A stretch of 64,000 nt of DNA from an uncultured Pseudomonadota bacterium. GTDB lineage: Bacteria; Pseudomonadota; Gammaproteobacteria; Steroidobacterales; Woeseiaceae. The position numbers and the translations under genes were made by a program. The notes below the pieces were generated by a model. That model was not told the origin of the DNA. It searched no databases and saw only the letters and a list, made by a program, of their open reading frames with translations. The stretch spans positions 62,001-126,000 of the forward strand of contig CAJXJW010000007.1 in assembly GCA_913055625.1 (NCBI GenBank). Direction: 5' to 3'. Every line of letters begins with the position of its first letter. Positions within the stretch are counted from its first letter, which is position 1. This document shows positions 1,750-23,716 of this stretch, piece by piece.

Positions 1750-4557
1750 TTAGAACTTGACCTGTATACCGGCGAAGGCGTTCCACGAGTAGATCTCGTT
1801 CTCCGCCAGGCGGCCGCTTTCCCTGCCGCTGAACATTCGCAACGGTGCGTCGTTGAGGTTCATGAATTCGATATACGCGTTCAGGTTGTCCGTGAACTGG
1901 TAACTCGCCTTCAGGTCGAGCTGGCCGCGGTCATCGAAGTACAGGTCCTGGCTCTCGTCGTCGCCGAGGCCGTCGAGGTAGGTGCTGTAGTACGTGTAGG
2001 CGATGCGTGCCTCGAAGCCCGCCCACTCGTAGAACAGTGCGGCGTTGCCGATGTGTTCGGACTGCAGGAAGAACGGCAGTTTTTCATCGCGACCGAATAC
2101 CGTGGCTTCACTGTCCGTGTAAGTGTAGTTGAGCGAAATGCCGAGCCCGCTGAAGGCCGACGGCAGCCCGATGAACTGCTGCTGGTAGTTGAACTCGACG
2201 CCGAAAATGCTGCCCTCCTCGGCATTGTCCGTCGTTTCGACAACGAGTTCGCTGAAGAAGCGTCCCTCGAAGGTCTCGTCCTCGAACTCAGTGATGCGCG
2301 TGAAGATCGGGTCCTCGATGTCCTTGTAAAAGACGCCCGCCGCGAGGATGCCGCCTGTTTCCAGGTACCACTCGATGGCAAGGTCGAAGTTCATCGATTC
2401 GAGCGGCACGAGGTTCGGATTGCCGGCCTCGATTTCGCCCTCAAAGACGCCCGGGTCGTCCTCGTCAACCTCGAAGAGCCGGAACGGGGCAAGGACCTCG
2501 TAGGAAGGCCGGCCAACCGTGTTCGTCCACGCAGCGCGGAACAGCAGGTTGTCCTGAAGCGCCCAGCGCAGGTGCAGGCTGGGCAGCCAGTGCGTGTAGT
2601 CGTCGCTGCCCGATACGGGCACCGGTGCTTCCGGGTCGCCGTCGACAAACACGACGTCGTAGGCCGAGAAACTTGAGTCTGTCTGTTCGACGCGGACGCC
2701 GGCGATCATCGTCGCATTGCCGACGTCGAACTCACCCATGATATAGGCGGCGTCGACGCGCTCGTTTACTTCGAAGTCAACGCCGTAGGACTCCGCCACC
2801 GTGTCGGCGTCGTTCACTTCGAAGCCGGCCGTGTTGCCGTCGTAGAAGCCCTCGAGCGCCGGGAACAGCATGCGCGGACCGAAGTCGTAGTACGGGCGAA
2901 CGCTGTCGTAGAAATCGGCCTTGCCCGGCTCGGTGAAGCCGACCAGCGTGAGGTCATCCGCATATCCGTCGTAGACGGTCATGTCCTGGTCAGACGTCTT
3001 CTCGCGATCCGTGCTCTTGATGCCGAATTTCACGAGGCCGGGCGCATTGCCCACCGTGATGTCACGTTCGAAATCCAGCTGGAAGGACGTGATGTCCTCG
3101 ACGATGATCTGGCCGCCGCGCAGGTACTCGCTGAACTCGAAATTGCCGGGATCGTTGAACGCGGCTGTATCGGAGGCATCGACGCGCCAGAATTCATCCG
3201 ACGTGTCGTAGGTCATCGGCTGCACTTCGCTGAGCTCGAACACCCATTCGCGGTCGCGGGGCGTGTCCTGCTCGGCTTCACCGATCGTCGCCTGAGCGTC
3301 GATGCCCCAGCGGCCGACGATGAACTCGCCGCCGATCGTGTGCGTGCGAATCCGCTGTTTTTCGAGGCGGTCAGAGATCAGCCGCTCGCCTTCGCCCTCG
3401 GTGAACGTGCCCGACGTCGCCGTCTGATTCTCGAGATCACCTTCGCGGTACTTCCAGATCGTCTCCGCCTGGATTTCCGTGTCCTGGTAATCGTTGAAGA
3501 GATTGCGGAAGTACAGCTTCGCCTCGTCGCTGGGCTGCCATTCGAGGTTGGCGACGATGCCGGCGCGCTCGCGCGTGATCCGGTAGTCGCGCAGCACCTG
3601 TTCGTCGGGGATGAGGAAGTTTCCTTCCTCTTCCCACGGGTCGCCGCCCTGCAGGTTCTCGGTGTCGTACTGGCGATCCGTGTAGCTTGCCGACAGCACG
3701 ATGCCCCATTCGTCGTTTGCGCCGAAGACCTGGCCCCAGCCGGCCGCCAGGCCCGTGGGATGCTCGCCGTTCAGGTCGTAGTAGCCGTAGTCCGCCGACG
3801 CCGAGAAGAAGAATCCTTCCGGGTCGTCGAACGCGCTCGGCGTCACGATGTTGATCGCGCCGCCGACGGAGTTGCCGTCCATGTCGGGCGTGACGGCCTT
3901 GACGACCTCGACGCGCGACAGCACTTCCGAGGGAATCGTATCGAGCGCGATGCTCCGGTTGTCCTCCGGCGAGCCGATGACCTGGTTGTCGACCGTCACG
4001 TTCGTGTAGTTGGAATCCACGCCGCGGATCGTGACGTAGCGTCCTTCACCCTGATCGACGGTCGACGTGACACCCGCGACGCGTCGCAGCGCCTCCGCGA
4101 TGTTCTGGTCCGGCAGCTTGCCGGCGTCGTCCGCCGTGATCGCTTCCTTGATCATCGCGGACATGCGCTTGTCCTGCAGCGCGTTCGCTTGCGCCGCGCG
4201 GTAGCCGGTGACGACCACTTCCTCGGTAATGCTGACCGCCGTGAGTTGGAAGTCGAGTGTCGCGCTTCCGCCCTCGCTGACGGTGACGGTCTTTTCCAGC
4301 GGTTGGTAGCCGACGGAGCTGACGACGATCGTGTAGCTGCCGGGTGGCAGGTTGCTGATCGTGTAAGCGCCGTTTGCGGCAGCGGCGACCGAGCGATTGC
4401 TGTCGGCCACCGTCACCTCGGCGAAAGCCAACGGGCGGGACGTCCTGGCATCGGTGATTTCGCCGCGGACTGCGACCTGCGCCACCGCCGCCTGAGATGA
4501 GAACACGAGTATTGCGGTCAGAATGACCCGAAGAACTATCGAACTACCGGCGTGCAT
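1750..4557 (-). CDS. TonB-dependent outer-membrane receptor (Caulobacter type)
   Basis: A 935-residue outer-membrane transporter. In order: signal peptide 1-26 ending AVA-Q, a CarboxypepD_reg-like beta-sandwich (~28-112), a TonB-box-like EEVVVTG, a plug domain with LPDQNIAEALRRVAGV and NVTVDNQVIG, and a long beta-barrel ending in a terminal Phe (VKF). The arrangement matches the TIGR01782-type receptors that import oligosaccharides and other nutrients in proteobacteria. AAGGGG lies at good spacing before the ATG. It diverges from the RpiR regulator, and its probable promoter has an RpiR-type operator between the -35 and -10 boxes. From that context I infer that it imports inositol phosphates/phytate or inositol glycosides; the protein itself does not show the substrate. 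Confidence 0.92.
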   Translation of the reverse strand: MHAGSSIVLRVILTAILVFSSQAAVAQVAVRGEITDARTSRPLAFAEVTVADSNRSVAAAANGAYTISNLPPGSYTIVVSSVGYQPLEKTVTVSEGGSATLDFQLTAVSITEEVVVTGYRAAQANALQDKRMSAMIKEAITADDAGKLPDQNIAEALRRVAGVTSTVDQGEGRYVTIRGVDSNYTNVTVDNQVIGSPEDNRSIALDTIPSEVLSRVEVVKAVTPDMDGNSVGGAINIVTPSAFDDPEGFFFSASADYGYYDLNGEHPTGLAAGWGQVFGANDEWGIVLSASYTDRQYDTENLQGGDPWEEEGNFLIPDEQVLRDYRITRERAGIVANLEWQPSDEAKLYFRNLFNDYQDTEIQAETIWKYREGDLENQTATSGTFTEGEGERLISDRLEKQRIRTHTIGGEFIVGRWGIDAQATIGEAEQDTPRDREWVFELSEVQPMTYDTSDEFWRVDASDTAAFNDPGNFEFSEYLRGGQIIVEDITSFQLDFERDITVGNAPGLVKFGIKSTDREKTSDQDMTVYDGYADDLTLVGFTEPGKADFYDSVRPYYDFGPRMLFPALEGFYDGNTAGFEVNDADTVAESYGVDFEVNERVDAAYIMGEFDVGNATMIAGVRVEQTDSSFSAYDVVFVDGDPEAPVPVSGSDDYTHWLPSLHLRWALQDNLLFRAAWTNTVGRPSYEVLAPFRLFEVDEDDPGVFEGEIEAGNPNLVPLESMNFDLAIEWYLETGGILAAGVFYKDIEDPIFTRITEFEDETFEGRFFSELVVETTDNAEEGSIFGVEFNYQQQFIGLPSAFSGLGISLNYTYTDSEATVFGRDEKLPFFLQSEHIGNAALFYEWAGFEARIAYTYYSTYLDGLGDDESQDLYFDDRGQLDLKASYQFTDNLNAYIEFMNLNDAPLRMFSGRESGRLAENEIYSWNAFAGIQVKF

Positions 4558-4743: not shown

Positions 4744-4745
4744 AT

Positions 4746-4763
4746 CTGAAATACCTGTTTCAG
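4746..4763. promoter_or_regulatory. RpiR-type operator, site 2 (receptor/regulator region)
   Basis: The inverted repeat CTGAAA-TACCTG-TTTCAG has perfect 6-bp arms and contains GAAA-N6-TTTC. Its centre is 29 bp from that of site 1, the same distance as in the pair before the iol operon. Confidence 0.6.
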
Positions 4764-4899: not shown

Positions 4900-5736
4900 G
4901 TGCATGCCCCACGGGACATTCGAGAACTGCGCGAGGCGATCGTTGAACGCCACGACGACCTCAGCCCGCGCCTCCGGCAGGTCGCCGCCTACGTGCTGGA
5001 TCATCCGAACGACATGGGCCTCGAGACGCTGGCGGTCATCGCCGAGCGTTGCGGCGTGCAGGCATCCACGATCGTGCGCTTTGCGAAGGCGTTCGGCTAC
5101 GAGGGTGCGAGCCAGATGCAGCGACTGTTTCGGGACGAGTTGATCAGCGCGACGCCGAGCCCGAGCTACGCGGAACGCGTGCGTCAGTTCAGCGAACGGT
5201 CCGGCGACCGGCATTCGCTCACGCCCCACGAGCTGCTCCGGGAGTTTTCCGACAGCAACATCATCGCGCTCGAGCACCTGAAGGAGTCGATCGATGCGAA
5301 GGAACTCGAACGTGCCGTCGACCTCGTGGTCCGGGCGCGAAACGTTTACCTTGTGGGGCTGCGCCGCTCGTTCCCGGTCGCGGCCTACCTTGCCTACGCG
5401 CTGCGGCACATCGACAAGCCCGCGCACCTGATCGACGGACTCGCCGGGATGCTGATCGAGCAGAGCTCGATGCTGTCGAAAGACGACCTGCTGTTCGCGA
5501 TCAGTTTCCGACCATACGCCAAGGAAACCGCGGAGATCGTCGATCGCGCGCGCGAGGCCGGCGCCGGCGTCATATCCATCAGCGACAGCCAGCTCAGCCC
5601 GGTGTCGCGCGAAGCGGACATCTCTTTCGACATCAAGGACGCCGAGGTGCGCCAGTTCCGGTCGTTGACCGCGTCGCTGTGCCTCGCGCAGACACTGGTC
5701 ATCGCCTACGCACACCGCCTGGAGGACAAGCATTGA
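4900..5736 (+). CDS. RpiR/MurR-family transcriptional regulator (IolR-like)
   Basis: A 278-residue regulator with an N-terminal HTH_6 domain (~1-77, including ETLAVIAERCGVQASTIVRF) and a C-terminal SIS sugar-phosphate isomerase-like effector domain (~125-260). RpiR proteins bind phosphorylated sugar intermediates through the SIS domain; IolR of alphaproteobacteria is of this type. The GTG start is chosen for the strong AAGGAG nine bases upstream. Its stop overlaps the TTG start of iolG by four bases, so the two are translationally coupled. The paired palindromes upstream suggest autoregulation, and the same sites at the iol and phytase promoters mark it as the local regulator. The effector is unknown; 2-deoxy-5-keto-gluconate 6-phosphate is a reasonable guess. 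Confidence 0.88.
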   Translation: MHAPRDIRELREAIVERHDDLSPRLRQVAAYVLDHPNDMGLETLAVIAERCGVQASTIVRFAKAFGYEGASQMQRLFRDELISATPSPSYAERVRQFSERSGDRHSLTPHELLREFSDSNIIALEHLKESIDAKELERAVDLVVRARNVYLVGLRRSFPVAAYLAYALRHIDKPAHLIDGLAGMLIEQSSMLSKDDLLFAISFRPYAKETAEIVDRAREAGAGVISISDSQLSPVSREADISFDIKDAEVRQFRSLTASLCLAQTLVIAYAHRLEDKH

Positions 5737-6728
5737 GTATCGAGATCGCCGTGATCGGCGCGGGACGCATCGGTCAGATTCATGCGCGCAACATCGCGCG
5801 GCACCCGGACGCACGGGTGCGCTACGTCGTCGACGTGAATGCGGAAGCGGCCACCCGGCTCGCCGACGCCTGCGGCGCGTCGGTGAGTGACGAGACGACC
5901 GCGCTGACGGATCCCGCGGTCGACGGGGTGGTCATCGCGAGTTCCACTGACACCCACCTGCCGCTGATCGTCGCGTGTGCCGACAGCGGGAAGTCCGTGT
6001 TCTGCGAGAAGCCGCTGGACCTGGACACGTCGCGCGCCGAACAGTGCCGGGCGGCCGCGGCCGACGCCGGCATCGATTTGTTCGTCGGCTTCAATCGCCG
6101 TTTCGACCCGACGTTTCGAAAAATCCGGGACGCCGTGGCGGATGGCCGCGTCGGCCAGCTCGAAATGGTCACTGTCACGAGTCGTGACCCGGCGCCGCCG
6201 CCGCTGGCCTACCTGCGTCGCTCCGGTGGCCTGTTTCGCGACATGATGATTCACGATTTCGACATGGTCTGCTGGCTCACGGGCAGCGAGCCGAAGTCCG
6301 TGTTCGCAACCGGCGCGGCGCGGGTCAGCCAGGACGTGATCGATGCCGGCGATGTCGATACCGCAGCCGTCGTCGTCGAAATGCACGACGGCGCGTATTG
6401 CCAGATCAGCAACAGCCGCCGCTGCGTGTACGGGTACGACCAGCGCATCGAGGTGTTCGGTGCAGCGGGCATGCTGCGTGCGGGGAACGCGACGGAAACG
6501 CGCGTCGAGTCCGCCGACGCGGGCGGGTTTCACACCGAGCCGGCGCTGCCGTTCTTCCTGGAGCGATACGACGCGGCGTATCGGCACGAAACCGACGATT
6601 TCGTGCGCGCGCTGGCCGGGAAGCCACACGCGCTGCCCGGCGCGCGGGACGGGGTGCGTGCCCTGCAGCTCGCCGACGCGGCGGAGGCGAGCCTGAAGGA
6701 GGGCCGGGCCGTGCCGGTTGCCGGATGA
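5733..6728 (+). CDS. iolG: Inositol 2-dehydrogenase (Gfo/Idh/MocA family)
   Basis: A 331-residue NAD-dependent dehydrogenase that oxidises myo-inositol to 2-keto-myo-inositol (scyllo-inosose), the first step of the iol pathway. GAGRIG (residues 9-14) is the Rossmann loop, CEKPLDLD places the catalytic Lys at 93, and DMMIHDFD gives the Asp-x3-His pair that completes the catalytic triad of the IolG type. The start is TTG in the overlap TTGA with the regulator's stop, with GGAGG eight bases upstream; upstream in-frame codons lie inside the regulator gene and are not used. Length is typical. It precedes the promoter of the main iol operon. Confidence 0.85.
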   Translation: MSIEIAVIGAGRIGQIHARNIARHPDARVRYVVDVNAEAATRLADACGASVSDETTALTDPAVDGVVIASSTDTHLPLIVACADSGKSVFCEKPLDLDTSRAEQCRAAAADAGIDLFVGFNRRFDPTFRKIRDAVADGRVGQLEMVTVTSRDPAPPPLAYLRRSGGLFRDMMIHDFDMVCWLTGSEPKSVFATGAARVSQDVIDAGDVDTAAVVVEMHDGAYCQISNSRRCVYGYDQRIEVFGAAGMLRAGNATETRVESADAGGFHTEPALPFFLERYDAAYRHETDDFVRALAGKPHALPGARDGVRALQLADAAEASLKEGRAVPVAG

Positions 6729-6741
6729 AATCATAATTTCA
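6726..6741. promoter_or_regulatory. RpiR-type operator, site 1 of the iol operon
   Basis: A perfect inverted repeat, TGAAAT-CATA-ATTTCA. Its first bases are the stop codon of iolG. Its centre is exactly 29 bp from the centre of the next palindrome. Confidence 0.65.
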
Positions 6742-6751
6742 ATAGCATTCT

Positions 6752-6773
6752 ATTTGAAATATTCATTTCAAAT
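6752..6773. promoter_or_regulatory. RpiR-type operator, site 2 of the iol operon
   Basis: Perfect 9-bp arms, ATTTGAAAT and ATTTCAAAT, around ATTC. This is the strongest palindrome of the set and covers the -35 box of the predicted iol promoter, as expected for a repressor site. Confidence 0.75.
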
Positions 6774-6782
6774 GGGTATCTT
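6754..6782 (+). promoter_or_regulatory. Predicted sigma-70 promoter of the iol operon
   Basis: TTGAAA and TATCTT are separated by 17 bp, about 60 bases before the first start codon. The -35 box lies inside the 22-bp palindrome. Confidence 0.55.
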
Positions 6783-6845
6783 TCGAGTCGCGGGGTCGCG
6801 CGTGGGCGGCCGCGATTCTCGGGACCGGACAGCAGGTTATTGACG

Positions 6846-7976
6846 ATGTCGCAACAGGGCTTCGGCCTGATCGGCACAGGGTTCATGGGCAGGGCGCACG
6901 CCATCGCGCTCGGTGGCGTGGCTCGCGTCTTCGATGACGTCACGGCGCCGCGCTGCGTCGCCGTCGCGGACCAGGACCCGCACCAGGCACAGGACGCCGC
7001 GCGCCGACTCGGCTTCGAGCGCGGCGTCGGCGACTGGCACGATCTCGTCCGGGACCCGGACGTGAACGTGGTCGACATCTGTACGCCGAACTACCTGCAC
7101 GCGGAAATGGCGCTTGCCGCGATTCGCGCCGGCAAGCACGTGTACTGCGAGAAGCCCCTGGCACTGGACGTCGACGAAGCGCAGCAGCTCGCCACGGCGG
7201 CTGCCGAGGCGGGCGTCGTGCACGCGGTCGGGTTGAACTACACGGCGAACCCGATGCTGGCAGTCGCGCGGGACATGATCGCGGCGGGTGAGATCGGCGA
7301 ACCGACGTCGTTCTCCGGGCGCTACCTGGAGGACTACATGACCAGTGCGGACGTGCCGTTCAGCTGGCGTTGCGAGCGGAGACTGGCCGGCTCGGGCGCG
7401 CTGGGCGACCTGGGCTCCCACCTGATCAACCTGCTGCATTTCCTGCTCGGGCGGCCGCGACGGCTGGTCGCAAGCCTGAACACGCTCGTGCCCGAACGGG
7501 CCGACCCGGCCACGGGCGCGCGGCGAAAGGTCGAGAACGAGGATATCGCCAGCGCGTTGATCGAGCTGGAGACGGGCATTCCGGCGACGTTCGAGATCAG
7601 CCGCATCGCCACCGGCTACAAGTGCGGCCTCACGTTCGAATTGGCCGGTACGCGCGGTGCGATCGCCTTCGACCAGGAGCGAATGAACGAGTTGCGCGTT
7701 TATGACGCCGCGGGCAAGCCGGGGCGCCGCGGCTTTCGCACGATACTGGCCGGGCCGGATCACGGCGACTACGGGCGCTTCTGCCCGGCGCCGGGACACG
7801 GCCTCGGCATCAACGACCTGAAGGTCATCGAGATTCACCGCCTGCTGAGGGCCATCGAGCACGGCGAGACGTTCTGGCCGGACTTCGACGAAGGCCTGGC
7901 CGTGCAACGGGTGATGGCGGCGATGGAGTCGTCCGCGGCCGCCGGCGAGTGGGTCTCACTGGATTGGCAGAACTGA
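6846..7976 (+). CDS. Gfo/Idh/MocA family dehydrogenase of the iol operon
   Basis: A 376-residue NAD(P)-dependent oxidoreductase, the second of this family in the locus. It shows the Rossmann motif GTGFMG, the catalytic CEKPLALD, and DLGSHLINLLHF with the Asp-x3-His pair. Proteins of this kind in inositol clusters (IolX, IolW, IolU and relatives) interconvert scyllo-inositol isomers or oxidise other cyclitols or sugars to inosose-like ketones, so this one may widen the substrate range beyond myo-inositol. ATG 6846 is preferred over the TTG six bases upstream because an AGCAGG ribosome-binding-like sequence precedes it. It is the first gene after the operator-controlled promoter, and its stop abuts the iolB start. 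Confidence 0.82.
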   Translation: MSQQGFGLIGTGFMGRAHAIALGGVARVFDDVTAPRCVAVADQDPHQAQDAARRLGFERGVGDWHDLVRDPDVNVVDICTPNYLHAEMALAAIRAGKHVYCEKPLALDVDEAQQLATAAAEAGVVHAVGLNYTANPMLAVARDMIAAGEIGEPTSFSGRYLEDYMTSADVPFSWRCERRLAGSGALGDLGSHLINLLHFLLGRPRRLVASLNTLVPERADPATGARRKVENEDIASALIELETGIPATFEISRIATGYKCGLTFELAGTRGAIAFDQERMNELRVYDAAGKPGRRGFRTILAGPDHGDYGRFCPAPGHGLGINDLKVIEIHRLLRAIEHGETFWPDFDEGLAVQRVMAAMESSAAAGEWVSLDWQN

Positions 7977-13435: not shown

Positions 13436-13438
13436 TCG

Positions 13439-15772: not shown

Positions 15773-15903
15773 GGCCGGCAGCATGCCGCATCGCGGCTAA
15801 ATGCTTCATGAACGATGCTCTCACTCGCGTGTTACCCGCATCATGGATAGTGCCCCGGGAAGGGTGTTTGCCCTGCAAACCTTACCAGCCAAGGAGAACC
15901 TGT

Positions 15904-16326
15904 ATGAAACAATTCACCGCTTTTTCGCTGCTGGCCGCCAGCACGGCCGTGATCGCCGCCGGGCAGCTCGATTCGGCCGACGTGGTCATCGAGGCGCTGG
16001 CCGGCGCGGGCCATGCCGACGTGCGCAAGGTCGAACTGGATGACAACCTCTGGGAGGCCGAGGTCCGGGGCGCGGATGGCCGCTATTACGACCTGCACGT
16101 GATCCCGGAGACCGGCGCGATCCTCGATCCGAAGTCGGACCGTCCGGTGTTGACCGCCGCGGAGATTCGCGCGCAGCTCGAGTCGAAGGGCTACACGGAC
16201 ATCGACGACCTGGATCTCGACGGTGCGGTCTGGGAGGCGGAAGCCATTGACGCCAGCGGCATCGAGGTGGATCTGGTCATCAACGGCTTCGACGGTAGCG
16301 TGCTGTACTCGGAAGCGGACGACTGA
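15904..16326 (+). CDS. Exported protein with two PepSY domains
   Basis: A 140-residue protein with a short signal peptide (MKQFTAFSLLAASTAVIAA) and two PepSY-type repeats. Each repeat has an ...LWEAEV/VWEAEAI... strand, and each is followed by an acidic D-rich turn (GAILDPKSD, GSVLYSEADD). The AAGGAG site six to seven bases before ATG 15904 fixes the start. It diverges from the PepSY-regulator-kinase operon and is a likely target of that system. A perfect terminator palindrome follows. Function is unknown beyond the family link to periplasmic inhibitor-like modules. Confidence 0.8.
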   Translation: MKQFTAFSLLAASTAVIAAGQLDSADVVIEALAGAGHADVRKVELDDNLWEAEVRGADGRYYDLHVIPETGAILDPKSDRPVLTAAEIRAQLESKGYTDIDDLDLDGAVWEAEAIDASGIEVDLVINGFDGSVLYSEADD

Positions 16327-16406: not shown

Positions 16407-18428
16407 TTAATCAATCCCGAGCGCCTCGGCGATGTCGCGCCAGGCGACGTACTTGAAGTTCTGGCGCTGTTCCGGCGCGATGTTGCGGCCGTCCTGGACG
16501 ACGAGCAGGCCGTCGGACAGGACGCCCCCGAAGTTCGCCGACGAAACATCCAGGCCGTCGGTTTCCGACGCGCCGTCGATGCCCGCTGCGACATTGGCGA
16601 CGATGTGAAAGAAGCCAACAAAGTCGTTGTTGCCCTCGCGACGATAGATCGCGTAGTTGTTCGCGCCCTGGTTCGACGCAACGATGTACCCATTGCCGTC
16701 GCCGGCGTCGAACAGTGCGACGCCTTCGACGTCGTCGGTCAGGCGCCCGGCGTCGTCCGTCGTGTCGAGGGAGGTCCGGTCCGTGCCGCCGTCCGGTTCC
16801 GCCGAGTATTTCCAGAGGCCCACGTCTTCCTCGGCCACGTACAGCGCCGCGTGCACGTCGTCGGCGACGCAGCCTTCCGCCTGCGAGCCCACCGGGATGT
16901 CGCGCACCGGCTCGCCGGTCACGCGGCCGTTGCCGTTGTCGGTGAGGCGCCATTGCCGGACCAGCCCGGAGTCGGCGTCGTTGGCAAAGACGTAGTGGTC
17001 GCCCGTCTGCGGGCTGCGGTACTGGCACAGGCCGTACGGGTCGGCAAAGCCGGTCGGAATCACGCCGTCGGTGACCTCGACGAGCCGCCGTTCGGCGACG
17101 TCGATCGCGTACACGGTGATGCCGTCGTTGCTGCGATTGGTTGCCGTGACGATCGGCACGTCCCTGCCGCCGAGCCGGAAACCGTCGCGCACGTCGACGT
17201 TGTTCAGCCGGCCGTCCTCGAGTACCTGCAACGTCCGGCCGTCGAGGTCGAACACGTACAGGCCGGATTTCTTGCCGGTGCCGATCACGAGGCTCTGCGC
17301 CGGGTCTTCCGGGTGTACCCAGATCGCCGGGTCGTCGGCCGAGTCACCCCAGGTCGGGATGACATCGGTTTCGAGGACCGGGCGCACGACGTTCGGCCGG
17401 GGCGCATCGGCAAGGCCGGTCGCCGCCTGCAGCCCGAGCGTCGCGGTGACGGCGCCCAGGTCGACGAGCTTGAGATCGGATCCGCCGTCCGACTGGTCCT
17501 CGTCCGCAATGGCGAGCAAGGCCGCGCCGTCCGTCGCGATCGCGAGGCCTTCGGGTTCCGACAGGCCGTCCACCGTGAACGTGCCGACGCGTTCGCCGTC
17601 GGGCAGCGCGTAGACGGCAATTTCCTCCTTGCCGATGTCCGCGACGTACAGGTAGGCAAGGTCCGGGTTGACCGCGTGGATGGCGACGCCCTTGAGATCG
17701 TCCGACAACCGGCCGAACGGCTCCCGGAGGTCGACCGGTTCGCGGGTCGTGTCTTCTTCGGCCTCGCCGCCGATGCGCCAGATGCCGTTGGATTCCTCGA
17801 CGACGTACAGGCCGCCGTCACGCGGGTCGACGGCGCAGAACCCGCTGCTCTTCGCGGACGGCACCGTCCTGAGCAACCGGGCTTCCACGCCACTCGCCGT
17901 GACGAACAGCTCGTAGTGGCGGATCAGGCCGGTGTCGGTGACGGCGTACAGGTAGTCTGCGCCGGACAGGCGGCTGCGGTAGTGGCACACGCCGGTCACT
18001 TCGTCCTCGACGTCGATCGGGTCCGGCATAACCACCTCGAAGCTGCGGTCGGCAACGTCGAAGGTGTAGCCGCGGAGCGAGGCGGTCGCCGCGTCGTAGA
18101 CGACGATCAGCGTGTCGGCGTCGCCCAGCGCGATGTCCGGCACCGTGACGACGAGGCCGGCCTCGACCGCGTCGAGCGTGGCGATCCGTGCACCGTCATT
18201 GCCATAGACTTCGAGGCCCGACATGGCGGCGCCGAGAACGAGGCGTTCGCCGGTGCCGGGTGCGTACCAAAATGCAGCATTCACGAGGCTGCCGTGAACG
18301 ACGGGCGCGGTGGGCGCCGATGACAGGGCAGCTACCGCGTCGCCATTGGTCGCCGACGCGTCGGATGGCGCGCCGCAACCCGCGAGTGGGAGTGCCGTAA
18401 GAATCAATAAAAACAACGTATTACGCAT
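16407..18428 (-). CDS. Beta-propeller phytase, dual-domain lipoprotein
   Basis: A 673-residue cell-surface or periplasmic phytase that hydrolyses phytate to lower inositol phosphates and phosphate. The lipobox LPLAGC gives a lipoprotein start. The C-terminal half is a complete six-bladed phytase propeller: DDPAIWVHPEDPAQS, GTGKKSGLYVFDLDG, NNVDVRDGF, EGCVADDVHAALYVAEED and GIDGASETDGLDV carry the calcium/phosphate-site acidic, Lys and Arg residues. The N-terminal half repeats many of these blades imperfectly (GVCHYRSRLSGADYLYAV, SGFCAVDPRDGGLYVVEE), as in tandem-domain phytases where that half is incomplete. GGAG before ATG 18428 sets the start. It diverges from the OPA transporter across an RpiR-type operator, tying phytate use to inositol catabolism. 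Confidence 0.92.
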   Translation of the reverse strand: MRNTLFLLILTALPLAGCGAPSDASATNGDAVAALSSAPTAPVVHGSLVNAAFWYAPGTGERLVLGAAMSGLEVYGNDGARIATLDAVEAGLVVTVPDIALGDADTLIVVYDAATASLRGYTFDVADRSFEVVMPDPIDVEDEVTGVCHYRSRLSGADYLYAVTDTGLIRHYELFVTASGVEARLLRTVPSAKSSGFCAVDPRDGGLYVVEESNGIWRIGGEAEEDTTREPVDLREPFGRLSDDLKGVAIHAVNPDLAYLYVADIGKEEIAVYALPDGERVGTFTVDGLSEPEGLAIATDGAALLAIADEDQSDGGSDLKLVDLGAVTATLGLQAATGLADAPRPNVVRPVLETDVIPTWGDSADDPAIWVHPEDPAQSLVIGTGKKSGLYVFDLDGRTLQVLEDGRLNNVDVRDGFRLGGRDVPIVTATNRSNDGITVYAIDVAERRLVEVTDGVIPTGFADPYGLCQYRSPQTGDHYVFANDADSGLVRQWRLTDNGNGRVTGEPVRDIPVGSQAEGCVADDVHAALYVAEEDVGLWKYSAEPDGGTDRTSLDTTDDAGRLTDDVEGVALFDAGDGNGYIVASNQGANNYAIYRREGNNDFVGFFHIVANVAAGIDGASETDGLDVSSANFGGVLSDGLLVVQDGRNIAPEQRQNFKYVAWRDIAEALGID

Positions 18429-18486
18429 GGGTAGCTCCGCATGTATCGGCACCGGCGGCACCGGCTGTTCCAGTGCGCGAACGGTG

Positions 18487-18502
18487 TAGAATGATTATTC
18501 TA
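18487..18502. promoter_or_regulatory. RpiR-type operator between phytase and OPA transporter
   Basis: A perfect inverted repeat, TAGAAT-GATT-ATTCTA, sharing GAAT-N4-ATTC with the site at 4719. It lies between two diverging genes and where the weak -35 of the transporter promoter should be, so it may control both. Confidence 0.7.
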
Positions 18503-18510
18503 TCTGTTAG

Positions 18511-18516
18511 TATAAT
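18511..18516 (+). promoter_or_regulatory. Predicted -10 box of the OPA transporter operon
   Basis: A perfect TATAAT. At 17 bp upstream the -35 position (AGAATG) is poor and falls in the operator at 18487. Confidence 0.5.
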
Positions 18517-18517
18517 T

Positions 18518-18533
18518 GAATGAAAATTTCATT
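18518..18533. promoter_or_regulatory. Possible second RpiR-type operator of the phytase/transporter region
   Basis: GAAT-GAAA-ATTTC, inside a short palindrome with arms AATGAAA/TTTCATT. Aligned on the GAAT half, it is 29 bp from the operator at 18487. It is less symmetric than the others. Confidence 0.45.
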
Positions 18534-18566
18534 TTGATGACGGCGGCGTTCATAAAGGGTTTAGGG

Positions 18567-19913
18567 ATGGTGCGGAAACTGGCAACGATGTTTGCAACGG
18601 GACAGGACCGGCCGGAGCGCTCCGACCGCGGTGAAGTGGACCGGCTGTACCGGCACCACCGCCTGCGCATCCTCCTGGCCATCACGCTCGGCTACGGTCT
18701 CGCCTATACCTGCCGGTTGGCGCTGTCCGTCGTCAAGAAACCGCTGCTCGACGAGGGCATCTTCACCGCCGTCGAACTCGGCACGATCGGCGCCGCGCTT
18801 TTCTACGCGTATGCCTTCGGCAAGCTGGTGAACGGTTTCCTTGCCGACCACGCGAACATGAAGGTGTTCTTCGCGTTCGGCCTGCTCATGTCCGCGCTCG
18901 TCAACGTCGGCATGGGCTTCTCGACCGTCGTGGCCGTGTCCGCGGCACTGTGGGCCCTGAACGGCTGGTTCCAGGGCTTCGGCGCGCCGGCGGGGATCGT
19001 GTCGCTCGCGAACTGGTTCAGCAACCGCGAGCGAGGCCGCTACTACGGCATCTGGAGCACCGCGCATTCGATCGGGGAGGGCCTGACCTTCGTCGTCGTC
19101 GCGGCGATCGTTGCGATGTTCGGCTGGCGCTACGGCTTCTGGACGCCGGGCGTGCTGTGCATCGCCGTGGCAATCGGCATCTACCTGCTTATGCAGGACC
19201 GGCCACGCACGCTCGGACTGCCCGAGGTCAACGACTGGAAGAACGACCACTGGGAAAAGTCCGACGGCCGCGAGCGGGAGAACCTGTGGAAAAAGCAGCT
19301 CTCGATCCTCGTGTACCCGTCGATCTGGATCCTCGCGCTGGCCAGCGCGACGAACTACGTCGTGCGCTACGCGATCAACAGTTGGGGCATCCTGTACCTG
19401 CAGGAAGCCCGCGGCTATTCGCTGGTCGAGGCGGGTTCGCTGCTGATGGTGAACACGCTCGCCGGCATCGTCGGCTGCATCGCGTTCGGCTACATCTCGG
19501 ACAAGGTCTTCGGCGCACACCGGCCGCCGGCCAACCTGATCTTTGCGATCGTCGAGATCATCGCACTGCTCTTGATCTTCTTCGGCCCACAGAACACGCC
19601 GATGCTGGTCTTCGCCTTCATTCTCTACGGCATAGGCCTCAACGGGCTGGTGACTTCGCTCGGCGGCCTGTTCGGCGTGGACATCGCGCCGAAGTGCGCG
19701 GCCGGCGCGGTCATGGGATTCGTCGGCATCTTCAGCTACATCGGCGCCGGCATCCAGGAAAACGTGAGCGGCTACCTCATCGACAAGGGCACGACCATCG
19801 TCGACGGCAACCGCGTCTACGATTTCTCGGACGCGATCCTGTTCTGGGTCGGCGCATCCATCGTTTCCATGCTGCTGGCGGCCACGCTGTGGCGCGTCCG
19901 CCTGCGCGACTGA
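18567..19913 (+). CDS. OPA-family (GlpT/UhpT-like) organophosphate transporter of the MFS
   Basis: A 12-TM inner-membrane antiporter of ~448 residues. It aligns by eye with E. coli GlpT along its length: WFQGFGAP, NRERGRYYGIW and YISDKVF match GlpT's WFQGMGWP, QKERGGIVSVW and WMSDKVF. The two substrate-phosphate arginines of the family are present (R50 in YTCR, R267 in NYVVRYAINSW), as is the histidine of WSTAHSIG (~H167). So it should import a phosphorylated solute in exchange for phosphate. Beside a phytase and under the same operator, an inositol monophosphate is the obvious candidate. The start is uncertain: ATG 18567 is favoured, but TTG 18516, ATG 18537 and ATG 18588 are in frame. It leads a four-gene operon. 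Confidence 0.88.
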   Translation: MVRKLATMFATGQDRPERSDRGEVDRLYRHHRLRILLAITLGYGLAYTCRLALSVVKKPLLDEGIFTAVELGTIGAALFYAYAFGKLVNGFLADHANMKVFFAFGLLMSALVNVGMGFSTVVAVSAALWALNGWFQGFGAPAGIVSLANWFSNRERGRYYGIWSTAHSIGEGLTFVVVAAIVAMFGWRYGFWTPGVLCIAVAIGIYLLMQDRPRTLGLPEVNDWKNDHWEKSDGRERENLWKKQLSILVYPSIWILALASATNYVVRYAINSWGILYLQEARGYSLVEAGSLLMVNTLAGIVGCIAFGYISDKVFGAHRPPANLIFAIVEIIALLLIFFGPQNTPMLVFAFILYGIGLNGLVTSLGGLFGVDIAPKCAAGAVMGFVGIFSYIGAGIQENVSGYLIDKGTTIVDGNRVYDFSDAILFWVGASIVSMLLAATLWRVRLRD

Positions 19914-19938: not shown

Positions 19939-20838
19939 GTGAAGTCCTACGACCTCGTTTCCATCGGCAACTACACCAAGGACACCATCGTTTCGAAGGC
20001 GGGCACGCGCTACGTCGACGGGGGCGGCTATTGCTACGCGGCCCATGCCGCGCACCTGCGCGGCCTCGATGTCGCCGCCGTCACGCGGCTCGCGGCCGAG
20101 GATCGAAAGTCGACCCAGCCGCTCGTCGACAAGGGTATCGACGTGTTCATCATCGAGTCGCCGCAGTCGACGCTGATGCGTCTGGAATACCCGACGGACA
20201 ACGTCGACGAACGCACGCTCACCGTGGAGTCCGTGGCGGACCCGTACACGCCGGACTTGCTCGCGGACTTCAGCGCGCGCTCGTTCATCGTCAACGGCTC
20301 GGCGCGCGGAGAGGCATCACTGGACGTCATGCAGTCGCTGAAATCCCGTTGCGAGCACCTGTGCGCCGATGTGCAGGGCTTCATCCGCATCGTCGGCGAC
20401 GACGGTCAGCTGCGCTACGAAGCGTGGCCGGAGCAGGAAGCGATACTTGGTCTGCTCGACATCCTGAAGACGGATGCGGTGGAGGCCGAGTTCCTGACCG
20501 GCGAGGCCGACATCCACAAGGCGGCCCGTGCCCTGGCGGACCAGGGGCCCGCGGAGATCGTGCTCACGCATCGCAACGGATTGCTCGTGCTGGCCGACGG
20601 CGAGTACCACGAGGCGGGCTTCCACCCCGACGTGCTGCGTGGCCGCAGCGGGCGCGGCGACACCTGCATGGGTTCCTATGTCGCGGCGCGCCACGACCTG
20701 TCGCCGGCGGACGCCACGGTGTGGGCCGCGGCGGCCACGAGCCTCAAGATGGAGGCGGAAGGCCCGATCATGCGCAGCGCGGACGACGTGCGCGCGCTGA
20801 TTCGCGCGAAGTACGAAACGAACGGGGCCGCGGCATGA
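19939..20838 (+). CDS. PfkB-family carbohydrate kinase (possible inositol kinase)
   Basis: A 299-residue kinase of the ribokinase/PfkB fold. The N-terminal SIGNYTKDT recalls the VGNYCHD opening that I remember from plant myo-inositol kinase, followed by GGGYCYAAHAAHLRGLDVA. The ATP/anion-hole motif near the C-terminus is SGRGDTCMG rather than the usual GAGDxF(x)G, with the likely catalytic base Asp241. GTG is the start, with TGGAG upstream. It lies 25 bases after the transporter gene and overlaps the phosphoesterase gene as ATGA. Given the context, a cyclitol or sugar substrate is likely, but none is proved; the iolC kinase step is already covered by another gene. Confidence 0.7.
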   Translation: MKSYDLVSIGNYTKDTIVSKAGTRYVDGGGYCYAAHAAHLRGLDVAAVTRLAAEDRKSTQPLVDKGIDVFIIESPQSTLMRLEYPTDNVDERTLTVESVADPYTPDLLADFSARSFIVNGSARGEASLDVMQSLKSRCEHLCADVQGFIRIVGDDGQLRYEAWPEQEAILGLLDILKTDAVEAEFLTGEADIHKAARALADQGPAEIVLTHRNGLLVLADGEYHEAGFHPDVLRGRSGRGDTCMGSYVAARHDLSPADATVWAAAATSLKMEAEGPIMRSADDVRALIRAKYETNGAAA

Positions 20839-22100
20839 ACAGGGCATGGGTATGGAGTTCGGTCACCTGCCTGCTGCTTGCCGGGTGCGTGACGCCGCCT
20901 GATGAAGGCCCCGGCAGTGCAACGAGTATCCTCCTGATCGGGGACACCGGCTACGACTACGACTGGCTGGAGCAGGACGACTACGACGACAAGTTCACGG
21001 GCCGCGAGTTCGTCATGAAGGAACTCGACGACTGGATCGAGGACAAGTTGCCGATCGAAAATTTCGCCATCCCGCCGATGCACTTCGCCGAGCAGACCGG
21101 CGGCTACGTGATGGCGAGCGGCATGTGGCCGGTATCGAAAGCGTCGACAGCCTGGTGCGCCGAAGCGGGCCGCTGTGAATTCGGTGTCATGCTGGGCGAC
21201 AACATCTACCCGTCGGGCGCGACGCTCGGCGCGGACGGCCGCGACGACGACGAACGTTTCCGCGATCTCCTGTGGGCGCCGTACAAGGGCTACCGGGACC
21301 AGGACCCTGAATTCGTGCTGTACGCGGTGCTCGGTAACCATGACTGGGAGACGTCGCGCGAGGGCGCGATGCTGCAGGTCGAGTACATGCAGCAGTCGCC
21401 GCTGTATCACATGGACGGCATCTGGTACCGCGCCAGGCCGACTCCGGACATCGAGTTGTTCGCCATCGACACGACCGTGATGCTGGCGGGCCACACCGTG
21501 TACAAGGACGCCCTGGACGACGCCGGGGTGCCGATTCACACCGGCGAAGTCGAACCGGAGGTGCCGTGGGCGACGCCGCAAGGCGACGAGCGCAACATGC
21601 TGGCCTGGCTCGAGGCTGCGCTCGCGGAATCGGATGCGCGCTGGAAGATCGTGATCGGCCATCATCCGCTGTGGTCGTCATCGGGCACGAAGGTCGAAGA
21701 AGAGATCGTGCTTCGGCGCATACTTCGGCCGGTACTCTGTCGGTATGCGGATGCCTATATCGCGGGGCATGATCACATGCTGGAAGTCCACACCGATGAC
21801 TGTCGCAACGAACTTCCCGACGGCAACGACGCACCGCCGCTGCTGCACGTCGTCTCCGGCGCGGCCGGCAAGCAGCGGCCCGCGAACCCGGCGTTCATGG
21901 ACTGGCAGCTGAGAGAGCACGCGGACCTGAAATCGCTGTACGTCCGCGCGCTCGTCTGGGGCTTTGGCGAGCTGGTGGTCGAGGACGACGTCGCGAAGCT
22001 CATCATGGTGACCACGCCCAACGACGGCTCCGGCGCCACCAACGTCGAGTACGAGAACGACTTCGCGCGCCGTTCCGGCAGGCTGCGGGCCGGCGAGTGA
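20835..22100 (+). CDS. Metallophosphoesterase lipoprotein (acid-phosphatase-like)
   Basis: A 421-residue exported phosphatase of the calcineurin-like/purple acid phosphatase (ACP5-like) group. The N-terminus has lipobox LLLAGC, so it is probably anchored in the envelope. The five metal-site motifs appear in order: GDTGYDYD, GDNIYPSG, GNHDWE, IGHHPLWSSSG and AGHDHML. It could remove further phosphates from the lower inositol phosphates left by the phytase. The start overlaps the kinase stop (ATGA), and the stop overlaps the symporter start (GTGA), so the operon is translationally coupled. The substrate is an inference from context. Confidence 0.83.
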   Translation: MNRAWVWSSVTCLLLAGCVTPPDEGPGSATSILLIGDTGYDYDWLEQDDYDDKFTGREFVMKELDDWIEDKLPIENFAIPPMHFAEQTGGYVMASGMWPVSKASTAWCAEAGRCEFGVMLGDNIYPSGATLGADGRDDDERFRDLLWAPYKGYRDQDPEFVLYAVLGNHDWETSREGAMLQVEYMQQSPLYHMDGIWYRARPTPDIELFAIDTTVMLAGHTVYKDALDDAGVPIHTGEVEPEVPWATPQGDERNMLAWLEAALAESDARWKIVIGHHPLWSSSGTKVEEEIVLRRILRPVLCRYADAYIAGHDHMLEVHTDDCRNELPDGNDAPPLLHVVSGAAGKQRPANPAFMDWQLREHADLKSLYVRALVWGFGELVVEDDVAKLIMVTTPNDGSGATNVEYENDFARRSGRLRAGE

Positions 22101-23716
22101 TCCTCGCCGGGTTCATCGGCTTCACGGCGCTGGTCGGCGTCGTGACCTGGCTGGGAACCCGGCGCCACGACGTTACGCGGAGCGCCGACGGCTATTTCCT
22201 CGGCGGCCGCAGCCTGACGGCCTGGGTCATCGCGGGTTCGTTGCTGTTGACGAACCTGTCGACGGAGCACCTGATCGGCCTCAACGGGGACGCGTTCAAG
22301 CACACGATCGCCGTGATGGCCTGGGAAACGACGGCGGCCATCGCGATGGTGCTGACGGCGCTCGTGTTCCTGCCGCGGTACCTGAAGGCGGGCATCACGA
22401 CGATCCCGGAGTTCCTCGAGGCGCGCTTCGATCGCACGACCCGCGTCATCATGTCGCTGCTGTTTCTCGCGTCCTACGCGGCCGCGATCCTGCCGGTCGT
22501 GCTGCTGTTCGGCGCGACCGGCATCGAGAACCTGTTCGACATCTCCGCGCGCGTCGGCATCAGCGTCGACCAGGCGCGCCTGATCCTCATCTGGGGGATC
22601 GGCGCGCTGGGCTCGGTTTACGCGATCGTCGGCGGCCTGCGCGCGGTCGCGATTTCCGACACGGTGAACGGCATCGGCTTCCTGGTGGCAGGCCTGCTCA
22701 TTACGTACCTGGCACTGGCGGCCGCCGGCGACGGCTCGGCGGCTGCCGGGCTGGCGACGGTGTACGCCGCGGAGCAACCGAAGTTCGACATCACCGGCGA
22801 CGAACCGGGCAGTTTCCTGCCGTTCGGCGTGCTGTTCACCGGCCTCGTCATCAACCAGGTGTTCTTCTGGTGCGTGAACCAGTCGATCCTGCAGCGGGCG
22901 CTGGGCGCGCGGAGTCTCGCCGAGGGCCAGAAGGGCGTGCTGATCGGGGCGTTCCTGAAGCTGCTCGGGCCGCTGATCGTGGTGCTGCCCGGCGTCGTCG
23001 CGTGGCACCTGTTCAAGAGCGAACTCGGGCCGGACGACTACCTGCTGGCGTACCCGACGCTCGTGAAGTCGGTGCTGCCGCCGGCATTGTCCGGCGTCTT
23101 CGCGGCGGTCATGGTCGGCGCCGTGCTCAGTACGTTCAACAGCGTCCTGAACAGCGCGGCGACGCTGTGGAGCCAGGGCGTCTACAAGGCCGTCCTGCGC
23201 CGCGACGCCGACGAGCAGCGGGTCGTGGCGAACGGCCGCAACTGCAGCATCGTGCTGGCAATCGCCGCGATGGCGGTGGCGCCGGCGATCGACACGAGCG
23301 GCAGCCTGTACAACTACCTGCAGCAGATCAACGCGACGTTCTTCGGCCCGATGCTGGCCGTCGTGCTGGCGGCGTTGTTCACGACCCGCATCTCCGCGCT
23401 GGCCGCGAAGACCGCCCTGATCGTCGGTCCGGTGCTGTTCTACGTCATCAATTTCGCGCTGCACGACCCGATCCAGGCCTGGCTCGGTCGCACGTTTGCG
23501 TTGTCCGGTCCGGTGCATTTCCTGCACTTCCTGGCGTTCGTGTTCGTGCTCACGGCCACCATGATGGTCGCGATCAGCCTGGTCCGGCCGGGCCCCGGCG
23601 TGCTTCCGGCCGCGCCGGCCGCACCGGTCGAACTGACGCCCTGGCGCCACGCGCGGGTCGTTTCCGGGGTGGTCGTGATCGTGACGATCGCGACCTACGT
23701 CCTGCTGGCGCAATAG
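22097..23716 (+). CDS. Sodium:solute symporter (SSS/SLC5 family)
   Basis: A ~14-TM sodium-coupled transporter of 539 residues. ADGYFLGGRSLTAWVIAGSLLLTNLSTEHLIGLNG is recognisable as the family's first two helices, cut here by length but beginning at residue ~30; GGLRAVAISDTVNGIGFL is the SSS signature region. SLC5-like members import sugars, inositol and organic acids. As the last gene of the phytase-linked operon it probably brings in free myo-inositol, complementing the phosphate-ester uptake by the OPA transporter. GTG is the start, in a GTGA overlap with the phosphoesterase stop. Confidence 0.85.
   Translation: MILAGFIGFTALVGVVTWLGTRRHDVTRSADGYFLGGRSLTAWVIAGSLLLTNLSTEHLIGLNGDAFKHTIAVMAWETTAAIAMVLTALVFLPRYLKAGITTIPEFLEARFDRTTRVIMSLLFLASYAAAILPVVLLFGATGIENLFDISARVGISVDQARLILIWGIGALGSVYAIVGGLRAVAISDTVNGIGFLVAGLLITYLALAAAGDGSAAAGLATVYAAEQPKFDITGDEPGSFLPFGVLFTGLVINQVFFWCVNQSILQRALGARSLAEGQKGVLIGAFLKLLGPLIVVLPGVVAWHLFKSELGPDDYLLAYPTLVKSVLPPALSGVFAAVMVGAVLSTFNSVLNSAATLWSQGVYKAVLRRDADEQRVVANGRNCSIVLAIAAMAVAPAIDTSGSLYNYLQQINATFFGPMLAVVLAALFTTRISALAAKTALIVGPVLFYVINFALHDPIQAWLGRTFALSGPVHFLHFLAFVFVLTATMMVAISLVRPGPGVLPAAPAAPVELTPWRHARVVSGVVVIVTIATYVLLAQ

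Follow-up and report, generated by a model that had tools for sequence, protein, structure and literature searches.

Gene content of the locus

Within the 64-kb stretch of DNA analysed here, which we call the window, genes for a TonB-dependent receptor, an RpiR-family regulator, enzymes of inositol catabolism, a phytase, a phosphatase-like lipoprotein, two transporters and a PfkB-type kinase (PfkB2) lie together (Table 1). The original prediction had described a complete-looking phytate-to-inositol assimilation locus, and every gene that it named is backed by ORF calling, Pfam and NCBIfam. As for completeness, iolG, iolC, iolD and iolE all score above their NCBIfam cut-offs, and the PDB entry nearest to IolG (4hkt) is an inositol 2-dehydrogenase, but the IolA gene lies elsewhere in the window genome (G000:C1:278871-280298; TIGR01722, 695 bits) and the IolB-like protein scores under the NCBIfam IolB cut-off (103 vs 205 bits). 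Its Pfam KduI/IolB match is clear and, judged by sequence, IolB is a divergent member.

Table 1. Features of the locus, with positions in the window
Feature	Position	Strand	Basis or remark
TonB-dependent receptor with CarboxypepD_reg domain	1750-4557	-	Pfam
Divergent receptor/RpiR promoter	4557-4900		GAAW-N4..6-WTTC at 4720, 4748 and 4815; TGAAA-N6-TTTCA at 4747
RpiR-family regulator, HTH_6 + SIS	4900-5736	+	Pfam; predicted inositol-responsive
IolG, inositol 2-dehydrogenase	5733-6728	+	TIGR04380, 413.8 bits vs cut-off 355; TTG start overlaps RpiR stop
Promoter ahead of second dehydrogenase	6720-6846		two operator-like palindromes, at 6727 and 6756
Second Gfo/Idh/MocA dehydrogenase	6846-7976	+	Pfam; nearest solved structure is scyllo-inositol dehydrogenase
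IolB-like 5-deoxy-glucuronate isomerase (KduI/IolB)	7977-8804	+	Pfam KduI, 3.6e-54, 184 bits
IolC fused to DUF2090 aldolase (5-dehydro-2-deoxygluconokinase/phosphogluconate aldolase)	8797-10713	+	NF047869, 750 bits vs cut-off 600
IolD	10731-12557	+	TIGR04377, 920 bits vs cut-off 715
IolE, inosose dehydratase	12554-13435	+	TIGR04379, 399 bits vs cut-off 290
Histidine kinase/response regulator/PepSY block	13439-16326		Pfam
Tandem-propeller (dual-domain beta-propeller) phytase lipoprotein	16407-18428	-	LAGC lipobox; PF02333, 1.5e-108
Divergent phytase/MFS promoter	18428-18537		operator-like sites at 18489 and 18518
OPA-family (GlpT/SLC37-like) MFS antiporter	18537-19913	+	1pw4, E 1.2e-57; predicted inositol-phosphate importer
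PfkB2, predicted pyrophosphate-dependent myo-inositol kinase	19939-20838	+	PF00294
Purple-acid-phosphatase-like (PAP-like) lipoprotein	20835-22100	+	Metallophos; PDB purple acid phosphatases, E 1.7e-11
SSF sodium symporter, predicted free-inositol importer	22097-23716	+	PF00474; NF007790, 652 vs 401 bits

The second Gfo/Idh/MocA dehydrogenase has no NCBIfam equivalog above cut-off, and a scyllo-inositol-specific role for it, suggested by the nearest structure alone, was set aside. Proteins of the creatininase or zinc-alcohol-dehydrogenase type (the IolM, IolN and IolO kinds) were absent from the cluster ORFs scanned, and neither RNA elements nor tRNAs were found within the 64-kb window. The histidine kinase/response regulator/PepSY block, on which the original prediction was silent, splits the locus; a tblastn search of eight congeneric tandem-phytase stretches gave no match to it.

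Of the two stretches of the phytase that match PF02333, the first is a divergent domain scoring 49.6 bits, and the second (residues 358-683) aligns along the whole length of the Bacillus phytase 1poo. Plasmid carriage of similar phytases was considered and rejected, as only one of 21 plasmid records covers at least 80% of the query and all 21 fall below 60% identity. In the transporter operon, 25 bp separate the MFS gene from that of PfkB2, and the PfkB2-PAP and PAP-SSF junctions overlap by 4 bp each. When the MFS protein is aligned to 1pw4, equivalents of the GlpT phosphate-site Arg, Lys, His and Arg are conserved.

Operator-like sites and regulation

It had been claimed that the genes stand under shared putative operators, and as sequence these are real: the pattern GAAW-N4..6-WTTC has eight matches in the 64 kb, seven of them within the three cluster promoters. 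Six matches fell in the 570 bp tested compared with a mean of 0.26 in dinucleotide shuffles, none of 2000 shuffles reaching as many, although the pattern was picked after inspecting the promoters and this statistic is therefore post hoc. The more exact form TGAAA-N6-TTTCA, also picked after the window sites had been seen, occurs at five places in the 3.63-Mb genome, three of which are in this locus. The RpiR protein, with its HTH_6 and SIS domains, is the predicted inositol-type regulator of the locus.

Two other site types were searched for. TGTCA-N6-TGTCA, the E. coli-type Pho box and the only Pho consensus used, had 22 matches in the window with up to two mismatches, compared with a mean of 29.7 expected, and none in the three promoters. 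For GGAA-N6-TTCC, the rhizobial-type IolR site, 30 matches were counted in the window when one mismatch was allowed, the expected number being 15.7 and none of 100 shuffles giving as many. It was dropped in favour of GAAW-N4..6-WTTC, since its four exact sites are all in coding sequence and the receptor/RpiR promoter holds just three sites, each with one mismatch.

Conservation of the linkage

A lack of conserved linkage in relatives had been named as grounds for abandoning the original prediction, and the linkage was found to be conserved. Seven of the nine tandem-phytase genomes of the genus have iol genes in the fetched stretch, and in the other two the contigs end too early; near the single-domain phytase relatives iol genes were found in none of six. 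Ten loci of Steroidobacteraceae type (L057-L066) have the phytase-MFS-PfkB2 set too, and in the stretches examined all of them except L062 show iolB-E, whole or partial; two further families (G110 and G1022) also link phytase, OPA transporter and iol genes. Among phytases in general the linkage is rare, a point that the original prediction did not bring out: across the phylum only 2 of 40 sampled phytase loci have iol genes linked to them (42 other phytase genomes were available, with G732, G870 and G1046 left out of inspection).

The window cluster is strongly diverged from those of its congeners. Its phytase is 43-45% identical to theirs, and in five congeneric clusters (G038, G033, G007, G054 and G051) a receptor homologue of 32-33% identity occupies the same place and an RpiR homologue of 59-62% identity is present. 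An SSF homologue (63-65% identical) was found in G038, G001 and G033, as a cut piece in G051, and also in G591 and G535; the G007 and G054 clusters gave no match to it.

PfkB2 has the signature of a pyrophosphate-type inositol kinase

PfkB2 has the ribokinase fold (PF00294), and the best structural matches of its predicted model (pLDDT 92) are TM0415 entries. It carries all five PPi-kinase signature residues of the TM0415 group (K171, F221, R229, R232 and M266), and the RXGRGD motif is present as RSGRGD; on these grounds it is predicted to be a pyrophosphate-dependent myo-inositol kinase. Of the TM0415 acceptor-site residues, D11, Q141 and R145 are kept and N78 is replaced by Leu. PfkB2 has L78 and L89, as does the mutant of PDB 7e4l, the title of which states that the mutant changes a myo-inositol-1 kinase to a 3-kinase, whereas TM0415 itself has N78 and S89; from L78 and L89, Ins(3)P is the isomer predicted for PfkB2. 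The residues compared are identical to those of a protein of Levilinea saccharolytica (L109), and N78 is likewise Leu in homologue No. 49, which, in the available text of PMC5931981, comes from that species and uses PPi with myo-inositol.

Searches with PfkB2 gave 4591 matches, 120 of them listed, and the best 80 of 107 confirmed genome loci were used. In these 80, K171, R229 and R232 are invariant, and all five residues are found in 25 of the 41 loci linked to the MFS gene and 24 of the 39 unlinked ones; of the loci short of five, 28 differ at position 266 and three have F221W. The 41 linked loci, in which the PfkB2-type gene immediately follows that of the same OPA MFS, belong to several phyla. 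Cultured carriers of PfkB2 include Povalibacter uvarum and Steroidobacter agaridevorans. The other 39 have neither OPA gene nor phytase in the stretch examined, from which it follows that the family has other settings, although many loci lie on short contigs and absences apply to that stretch only. We ruled out PfkB2 as a genus trait: five of 99 genomes match and only the match of the window is strong, the other four being weak (E 1.5e-4 to 4.8e-4, 34-37% identity over a part), and PfkB2 was absent from all other congeners searched (n=60).

Exchange of PfkB2 and inositol monophosphatase

In 11 loci of relatives the MFS operon contains a PF00459 inositol monophosphatase (IMPase), belonging to one of two subfamilies that are about 35% identical. 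Six queries of three kinds found no IMPase in the window or in the 41 MFS-PfkB2 loci among the best 80 of 107, and no locus has both. PfkB2 is absent genome-wide from 10 of the 11 IMPase genomes (some of them drafts 82-88% complete), G1022 being left out. What the original prediction overlooked is that PfkB2, to judge from its signature and position, is a PPi-type inositol kinase occupying the place of a phosphatase. In the congeners the IMPase gene is not adjacent to the MFS gene but one small gene farther on. The cluster IMPase has not been relocated within the window genome, as the three PF00459 proteins encoded there outside the locus are only 31-35% identical to it; they could in principle hydrolyse InsP.

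There were 53 MFS matches, of which 46 were seen in context (39 newly fetched and 7 earlier) and seven were not (G028, G578, G040, G041, G058, G042 and one of G048). In the 31 scored loci the MFS gene lies with phytase or iol genes. G001 was left unscored, its contig stopping after the MFS gene. Two changes suffice to explain the distribution of the IMPase label over the MFS tree, in which G001 was labelled IMPase and G1022 left out. Both PfkB2 and a cluster IMPase are missing from G496, which does have phytase, MFS and iol genes, so neither of the two is indispensable.

Discussion

We consider it very probable that the locus uses phytate as a carbon source. This part of the original prediction fits our observations in that (i) operators are common to the RpiR gene and the other cluster promoters; (ii) E. 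coli-type Pho boxes are not enriched and (iii) the iol enzymes are complete once IolA, encoded elsewhere, is counted. A pathway from phytate to central metabolism in which an inositol phosphate enters through the OPA transporter also seems likely. In such a pathway, the TonB receptor would take up phytate, phytate-metal complexes or lower InsPs at the outer membrane, and the dual-propeller phytase and PAP-like lipoprotein, the latter presumed to be a trimmer of lower InsPs, would strip phosphate in the envelope. The SSF symporter would bring in free inositol, and the OPA transporter would import inositol monophosphate against Pi. IolG-E-D-B-C/aldolase and then IolA would convert inositol to acetyl-CoA and DHAP, with the whole locus under the control of an RpiR protein of inositol type.

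That PfkB2 has an InsP-dephosphorylating role is, in our estimate, a nearly even call that falls slightly on the doubtful side. Our specific proposal, offered tentatively, is that it may be a PPi-forming InsP phosphotransferase whose physiological direction in the cytoplasm is InsP + Pi -> inositol + PPi, the reverse of the kinase reaction, in which case it would substitute for the IMPase of sister species and save the phosphate bond as PPi. Under standard conditions this direction is unfavourable by some 8-10 kJ/mol. A proton-pumping pyrophosphatase is encoded in the window genome; we do not count it as a partner of PfkB2 because 55 of the 62 genomes searched (window included) carry one, and its presence is thus no evidence for a link.

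PfkB2 might instead run forwards and use PPi to phosphorylate inositol, inosose or an intermediate with an opened ring, forming a side branch or a trap, while a housekeeping SuhB-type IMPase, for which the three PF00459 genes are candidates, hydrolyses InsP. In the accessible text, the assays of TM0415 and homologue No. 49 ran in this direction, with a Km of 12 mM for inositol in the case of TM0415, and the authors allow that the true acceptor of both may be another compound, intermediates of the Thermotoga-type pathway having been proposed (PMC5931981). Genes for IolM, IolN and IolO lie beside the relatives in 13, 17 and 16, respectively, of the 41 MFS-linked loci among the best 80 of 107. 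We nevertheless regard forward operation as rather unlikely: the complete iolBCDE route requires no phosphorylated inositol, making InsP beside an InsP importer would be futile, and the MFS operon holds either IMPase or PfkB2 in the other's stead, with no locus carrying both.

The OPA protein could also carry another ester, such as glycerophosphoinositol or a sugar phosphate, and the locus serve phosphoinositide or mixed organophosphate use. The nearest named models of the transporter are UhpC, PgtP and GlpT, each below cut-off, and in a sister MFS clade outside the locus a HAD-type hydrolase comes next in 15 of 24 loci examined. This strikes us as improbable, given that the MFS partner is an inositol monophosphatase or inositol-kinase homologue in 30 of the 31 scored loci. 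A phosphate-scavenging phytase cluster that is a chance neighbour of an inositol operon is very improbable: a receptor-phytase pair is low-phosphate induced in Flavobacterium johnsoniae (PMC8115612, available text) and 38 of the 40 sampled phytase loci have no iolC/D nearby, but the linkage persists in the genus, the Steroidobacteraceae-type loci and two other families, the phytase/MFS and iol promoters carry one operator-like pattern, and E. coli-type Pho boxes are at or below chance.

Bacterial phytases are usually treated as phosphate-releasing enzymes. A conserved phytase-inositol locus with a common operator pattern suggests regulation that in some bacteria is geared to the carbon of phytate as well, and the swap of a phosphatase for a PPi-type kinase in one operon gives a testable handle on the role of the TM0415 family. 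Should the reverse direction of PfkB2 be true, metabolism would gain a PPi-yielding catabolic step that, coupled to an OPA antiporter, would salvage the energy of the phosphoester bond in imported InsPs in several bacterial phyla; the PPi could feed PPi-driven enzymes, such as the proton-pumping pyrophosphatase of the window genome, and the purpose of the TM0415 family would be explained. Among the organic phosphorus compounds of soil, inositol phosphates form a major class (PMC9430895, available text), and the accessible part of a 2026 study of gut isolates describes phytase genes as having no conserved neighbourhood across genera (PMC12838507).

Pairs of TonB receptor and beta-propeller phytase were reportedly described by Lim in 2007. 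The window shares with such pairs the placement of receptor and phytase in one locus (PMC3400609, PMC8115612); the pair in PMC8115612 was read as serving phosphorus acquisition and, unlike in the window, inositol catabolism is not part of the description in the portions of the two papers available. With myo-inositol catabolic gene clusters (PMC9430895) the window has iolG, iolB-like, iolC, iolD, iolE and a genomic iolA in common, and it adds a phytase, an OPA transporter, a PAP-like lipoprotein and a PPi-type kinase under one operator pattern; in the accessible text of that survey, phytase genes are not tied to these clusters. The OPA protein shares fold and phosphate-site residues with the GlpT/UhpT/SLC37 antiporters, its predicted substrate being an inositol phosphate. 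PfkB2 resembles TM0415 and homologue No. 49, as described in the available text of PMC5931981, in its donor-site five, most inositol-contacting residues and fold, but differs from TM0415 at positions 78 and 89 and in its setting, a phytate operon where its gene follows that of an OPA transporter and takes the position of an IMPase. The family is also common to the Thermotoga-type inositol pathway (IolG, IolM, IolN and IolO with TM0415), and IolM/N/O are found in many MFS-PfkB2 loci of other phyla, whereas the window has Bacillus-type iolBCDE instead.

The enzyme behind the OPA-type transporter

In the window, the OPA-type transporter gene (MFS) precedes PfkB2, a predicted PPi-dependent myo-inositol kinase of the TM0415 group. 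Some of the nearest PfkB2 proteins bear Woeseiaceae names, so that the host may be a Woeseiaceae-like member of the Steroidobacterales. Among 80 PfkB2 genome loci drawn from an alignment of close homologues (the best 80 of 107, many on short contigs), an OPA-type MFS gene lay directly upstream of PfkB2 in 41 under a looser rule and in 38 under a strict one (<=400 bp, strong match), the carriers belonging to Pseudomonadota, Acidobacteriota, Neomarinimicrobiota, KSB1, Ignavibacteriota and Bacteroidota. Within the fetched stretches, phytase was also present in 18 of these 41 loci and in none of the 39 without MFS, and six inositol monophosphatase (IMPase) queries found that enzyme in 0/41 and 1/39 (L108), respectively.

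A search that started from the transporter matched 46 genomes among 296 from the order. Near phytase or iol genes, MFS forms an operon with IMPase in G033 (where the IMPase is Pfam PF00459), G051, G032, G007, G054, G038, G591, G048 and G535; in the operons of this first IMPase subfamily inspected for it, a small lipoprotein of the ZrgA-like (zinc uptake) family sits between the two genes, which may relate to phytate chelating metals. In G110 and in G1022, a member of another class of the phylum, an IMPase of a different subfamily (also PF00459) directly follows MFS; these two proteins are 76% identical to each other and 35% to the first subfamily. A PhoD-like phosphatase gene lies downstream of the IMPase in G1022.

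Scored jointly, the MFS loci near phytase or iol genes held PfkB2 in 19 cases (the window, the Steroidobacteraceae-type loci L057-L066 and eight of other phyla; G001 unscored), IMPase in 11, neither in one (G496) and both in none. PfkB2 was absent genome-wide from the 10 IMPase genomes searched for it (all but G1022) and from G496. An MFS tree of 82 rows requires 2 changes for the IMPase label (shuffled mean 10.5) and 5 for the PfkB2 label (27.6). G110 falls among PfkB2 carriers in a group that is well supported; the placement of the window's MFS lacks firm support. In a sister MFS clade away from phytase and iol genes (L179-L204, order relatives), a HAD-type hydrolase comes next in 15 of 24 loci examined. 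The transporter is thus recurrently paired with an enzyme able to take phosphate off its import, and PfkB2 fills that place. The sister clade and its small HAD hydrolase make another transporter-phosphatase pair.

Direction of the PfkB2 reaction

PfkB2 might run backwards, converting inositol phosphate and Pi to inositol and PPi, and would then do the same job as IMPase. Alternatively, it may act forwards and phosphorylate inositol, but a forward reaction would put phosphate back on the very inositol required by the iol enzymes. From standard energies the reverse reaction is uphill by 8-10 kJ/mol; it could be pulled by high Pi, PPi removal and inositol oxidation. A soluble pyrophosphatase gene lies in the window and a proton-pumping one on another contig of the same genome; the pump, which 55 of 62 searched genomes have, is therefore permissive background only. 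We give the reversed role of PfkB2 somewhat less than an even chance.

Of the PfkB2 loci without an OPA gene, 18/39 include a Pit-family phosphate transporter homologous to that of locus L116 (itself PF01384), and in 14 of the 39 a Pit-type gene immediately precedes PfkB2, versus none of the 41 MFS loci. These Pit-PfkB2 loci are mostly from Chloroflexota. Fuller non-OPA loci (for example, L116 and the Levilinea saccharolytica locus L109) also carry an RpiR gene, HAD proteins and an ABC importer whose closest relatives are of phosphonate/glycerol-phosphate types; HAD-HAD or HAD-TIM fusions occur there. Phosphate or organophosphate transport therefore accompanies PfkB2 in most of the best 80 of 107 loci. 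Such company suits an enzyme consuming or yielding Pi and does not on its own fix the reaction direction.

Gene content and regulation

A second reading of 1750-23716, using ORF calls with third-position GC together with Pfam and NCBIfam, showed every gene named in the original prediction to be present. The complete-looking locus is not uninterrupted: a kinase/regulator/PepSY block splits iolE from phytase. In G110 (L285-L286) and in L062/L176, a locus from a Steroidobacter sp., a similar PepSY/regulator/kinase set lies close to MFS or phytase. Adjoining the TonB receptor gene is a Gfo/Idh/MocA oxidoreductase with a signal-like N-terminus, which was not reported as a best match in the congeners' clusters.

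Curated NCBIfam cut-offs are passed by IolG, IolD, IolE and the fused IolC-aldolase. The IolB-like gene matches Pfam KduI/IolB strongly but, at 103 bits, stays below the NCBIfam IolB cut-off of 205. The gene for IolA (TIGR01722) lies on a separate contig, so that, granting a divergent IolB, the predicted classical inositol route to acetyl-CoA is complete genome-wide. The phytase has a lipobox and two PF02333 stretches, the second domain aligning end to end with Bacillus phytase.

The RpiR and IolG genes overlap, the second Gfo/Idh/MocA dehydrogenase (Idh2) through IolE are contiguous, and MFS, PfkB2, the purple-acid-phosphatase-like lipoprotein and the sodium symporter form a tight operon (a 25-bp gap, then two 4-bp overlaps). 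The shared putative operators were borne out at the level of sequence, one pattern, GAAW-N4..6-WTTC, recurring in three cluster promoters. Because the pattern was first taken from these promoters, its match numbers are descriptive: (i) 7 of the 8 matches in the 64-kb window lie in them; (ii) 570 bp tested held 6, against a dinucleotide-shuffle mean of 0.26, with none of 2000 shuffles as high; (iii) a stricter form, TGAAA-N6-TTTCA, has 5 occurrences across the entire 3.63-Mb genome, 3 of them here; and (iv) the looser GAAW-N4..6-WTTC matched 48 times in 7037 bp of intergenic regions from 14 loci, where mononucleotide shuffles gave 1.5 on average and at most 6. Pho boxes of the E. coli type showed no enrichment in the window. 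These results fit a single regulon controlled by the RpiR protein of the cluster, where we infer both regulator and inducer.

Coordinates of features in the window and in two other loci
Feature	Coordinates	Context
GAAW-N4..6-WTTC sites	4720, 4748, 4815	receptor/RpiR promoter
GAAW-N4..6-WTTC sites	6727, 6756	IolG/Idh2 gap
GAAW-N4..6-WTTC sites	18489, 18518	phytase/MFS promoter
Gfo/Idh/MocA oxidoreductase	391-1704	beside TonB receptor gene
Histidine kinase, OmpR-type regulator, PepSY proteins	13439-16326	between iolE and phytase
Phytase	start 18428	
MFS	18537-19913(+)	
PfkB2	19939-20838(+)	
Arginine-to-putrescine set	29565-34517	
Deoxyhypusine-synthase-like gene	32459-33430	within arginine-to-putrescine set
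Soluble pyrophosphatase	37569-38132	
Cyclic-nucleotide-binding/kinase fusion	59215-60519	
ZrgA-like lipoprotein (and equivalents)	L030:17160-17753	congener; MFS/IMPase interval
PhoD-like phosphatase	L287:11792-13267	G1022 cluster

Phytase-iol linkage and precedent

Phytase occurs in 15 of the 99 genomes covered, the window's among them, as 9 tandem and 6 single-domain forms, all tandem carriers falling within the genus. The linkage is conserved there: iol genes lie in the fetched stretch of 7/9 tandem loci (window, G038, G033, G007, G054, G051 and G032), the other two (G001, G048) being cut by contig ends; a further contig of G048 has MFS, IMPase, IolE and IolD. None of the 6 single-domain loci had iol genes (the G006 stretch is only 5.2 kb). 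In a sample from across the phylum, 43 of 398 genomes had phytase and, in 40 loci inspected from 39 of them (3 left out), a TonB receptor was near phytase in 35 and IolC/IolD in 2, G110 and G1022. Receptor-phytase pairing is therefore the rule and phytase-iol linkage rare, yet kept or assembled in several families.

Strains with phytate as sole carbon source have reportedly been described (PMC11219571), and phytate carbon use is therefore not in itself new. The suggestion that this gene set is undescribed as one pathway stands as far as the accessible parts of the open-access literature go, which yielded no report joining phytase, OPA import, iol genes and a PPi-type kinase in one system. In the portions available, a study of gut isolates states that its phytase genes have no neighbourhood conserved across genera (PMC12838507), an inositol cluster survey does not join phytase genes to its clusters (PMC9430895), and receptor and phytase appear as neighbours (PMC3400609), in one case induced by low phosphate (PMC8115612).

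Elsewhere, the window carries an arginine-to-putrescine set (arginine decarboxylase, PAD_porph-type deiminase and C-N hydrolase) enclosing a bacterial deoxyhypusine-synthase-like gene, and a cyclic-nucleotide-binding domain fused to a Ser/Thr protein kinase.
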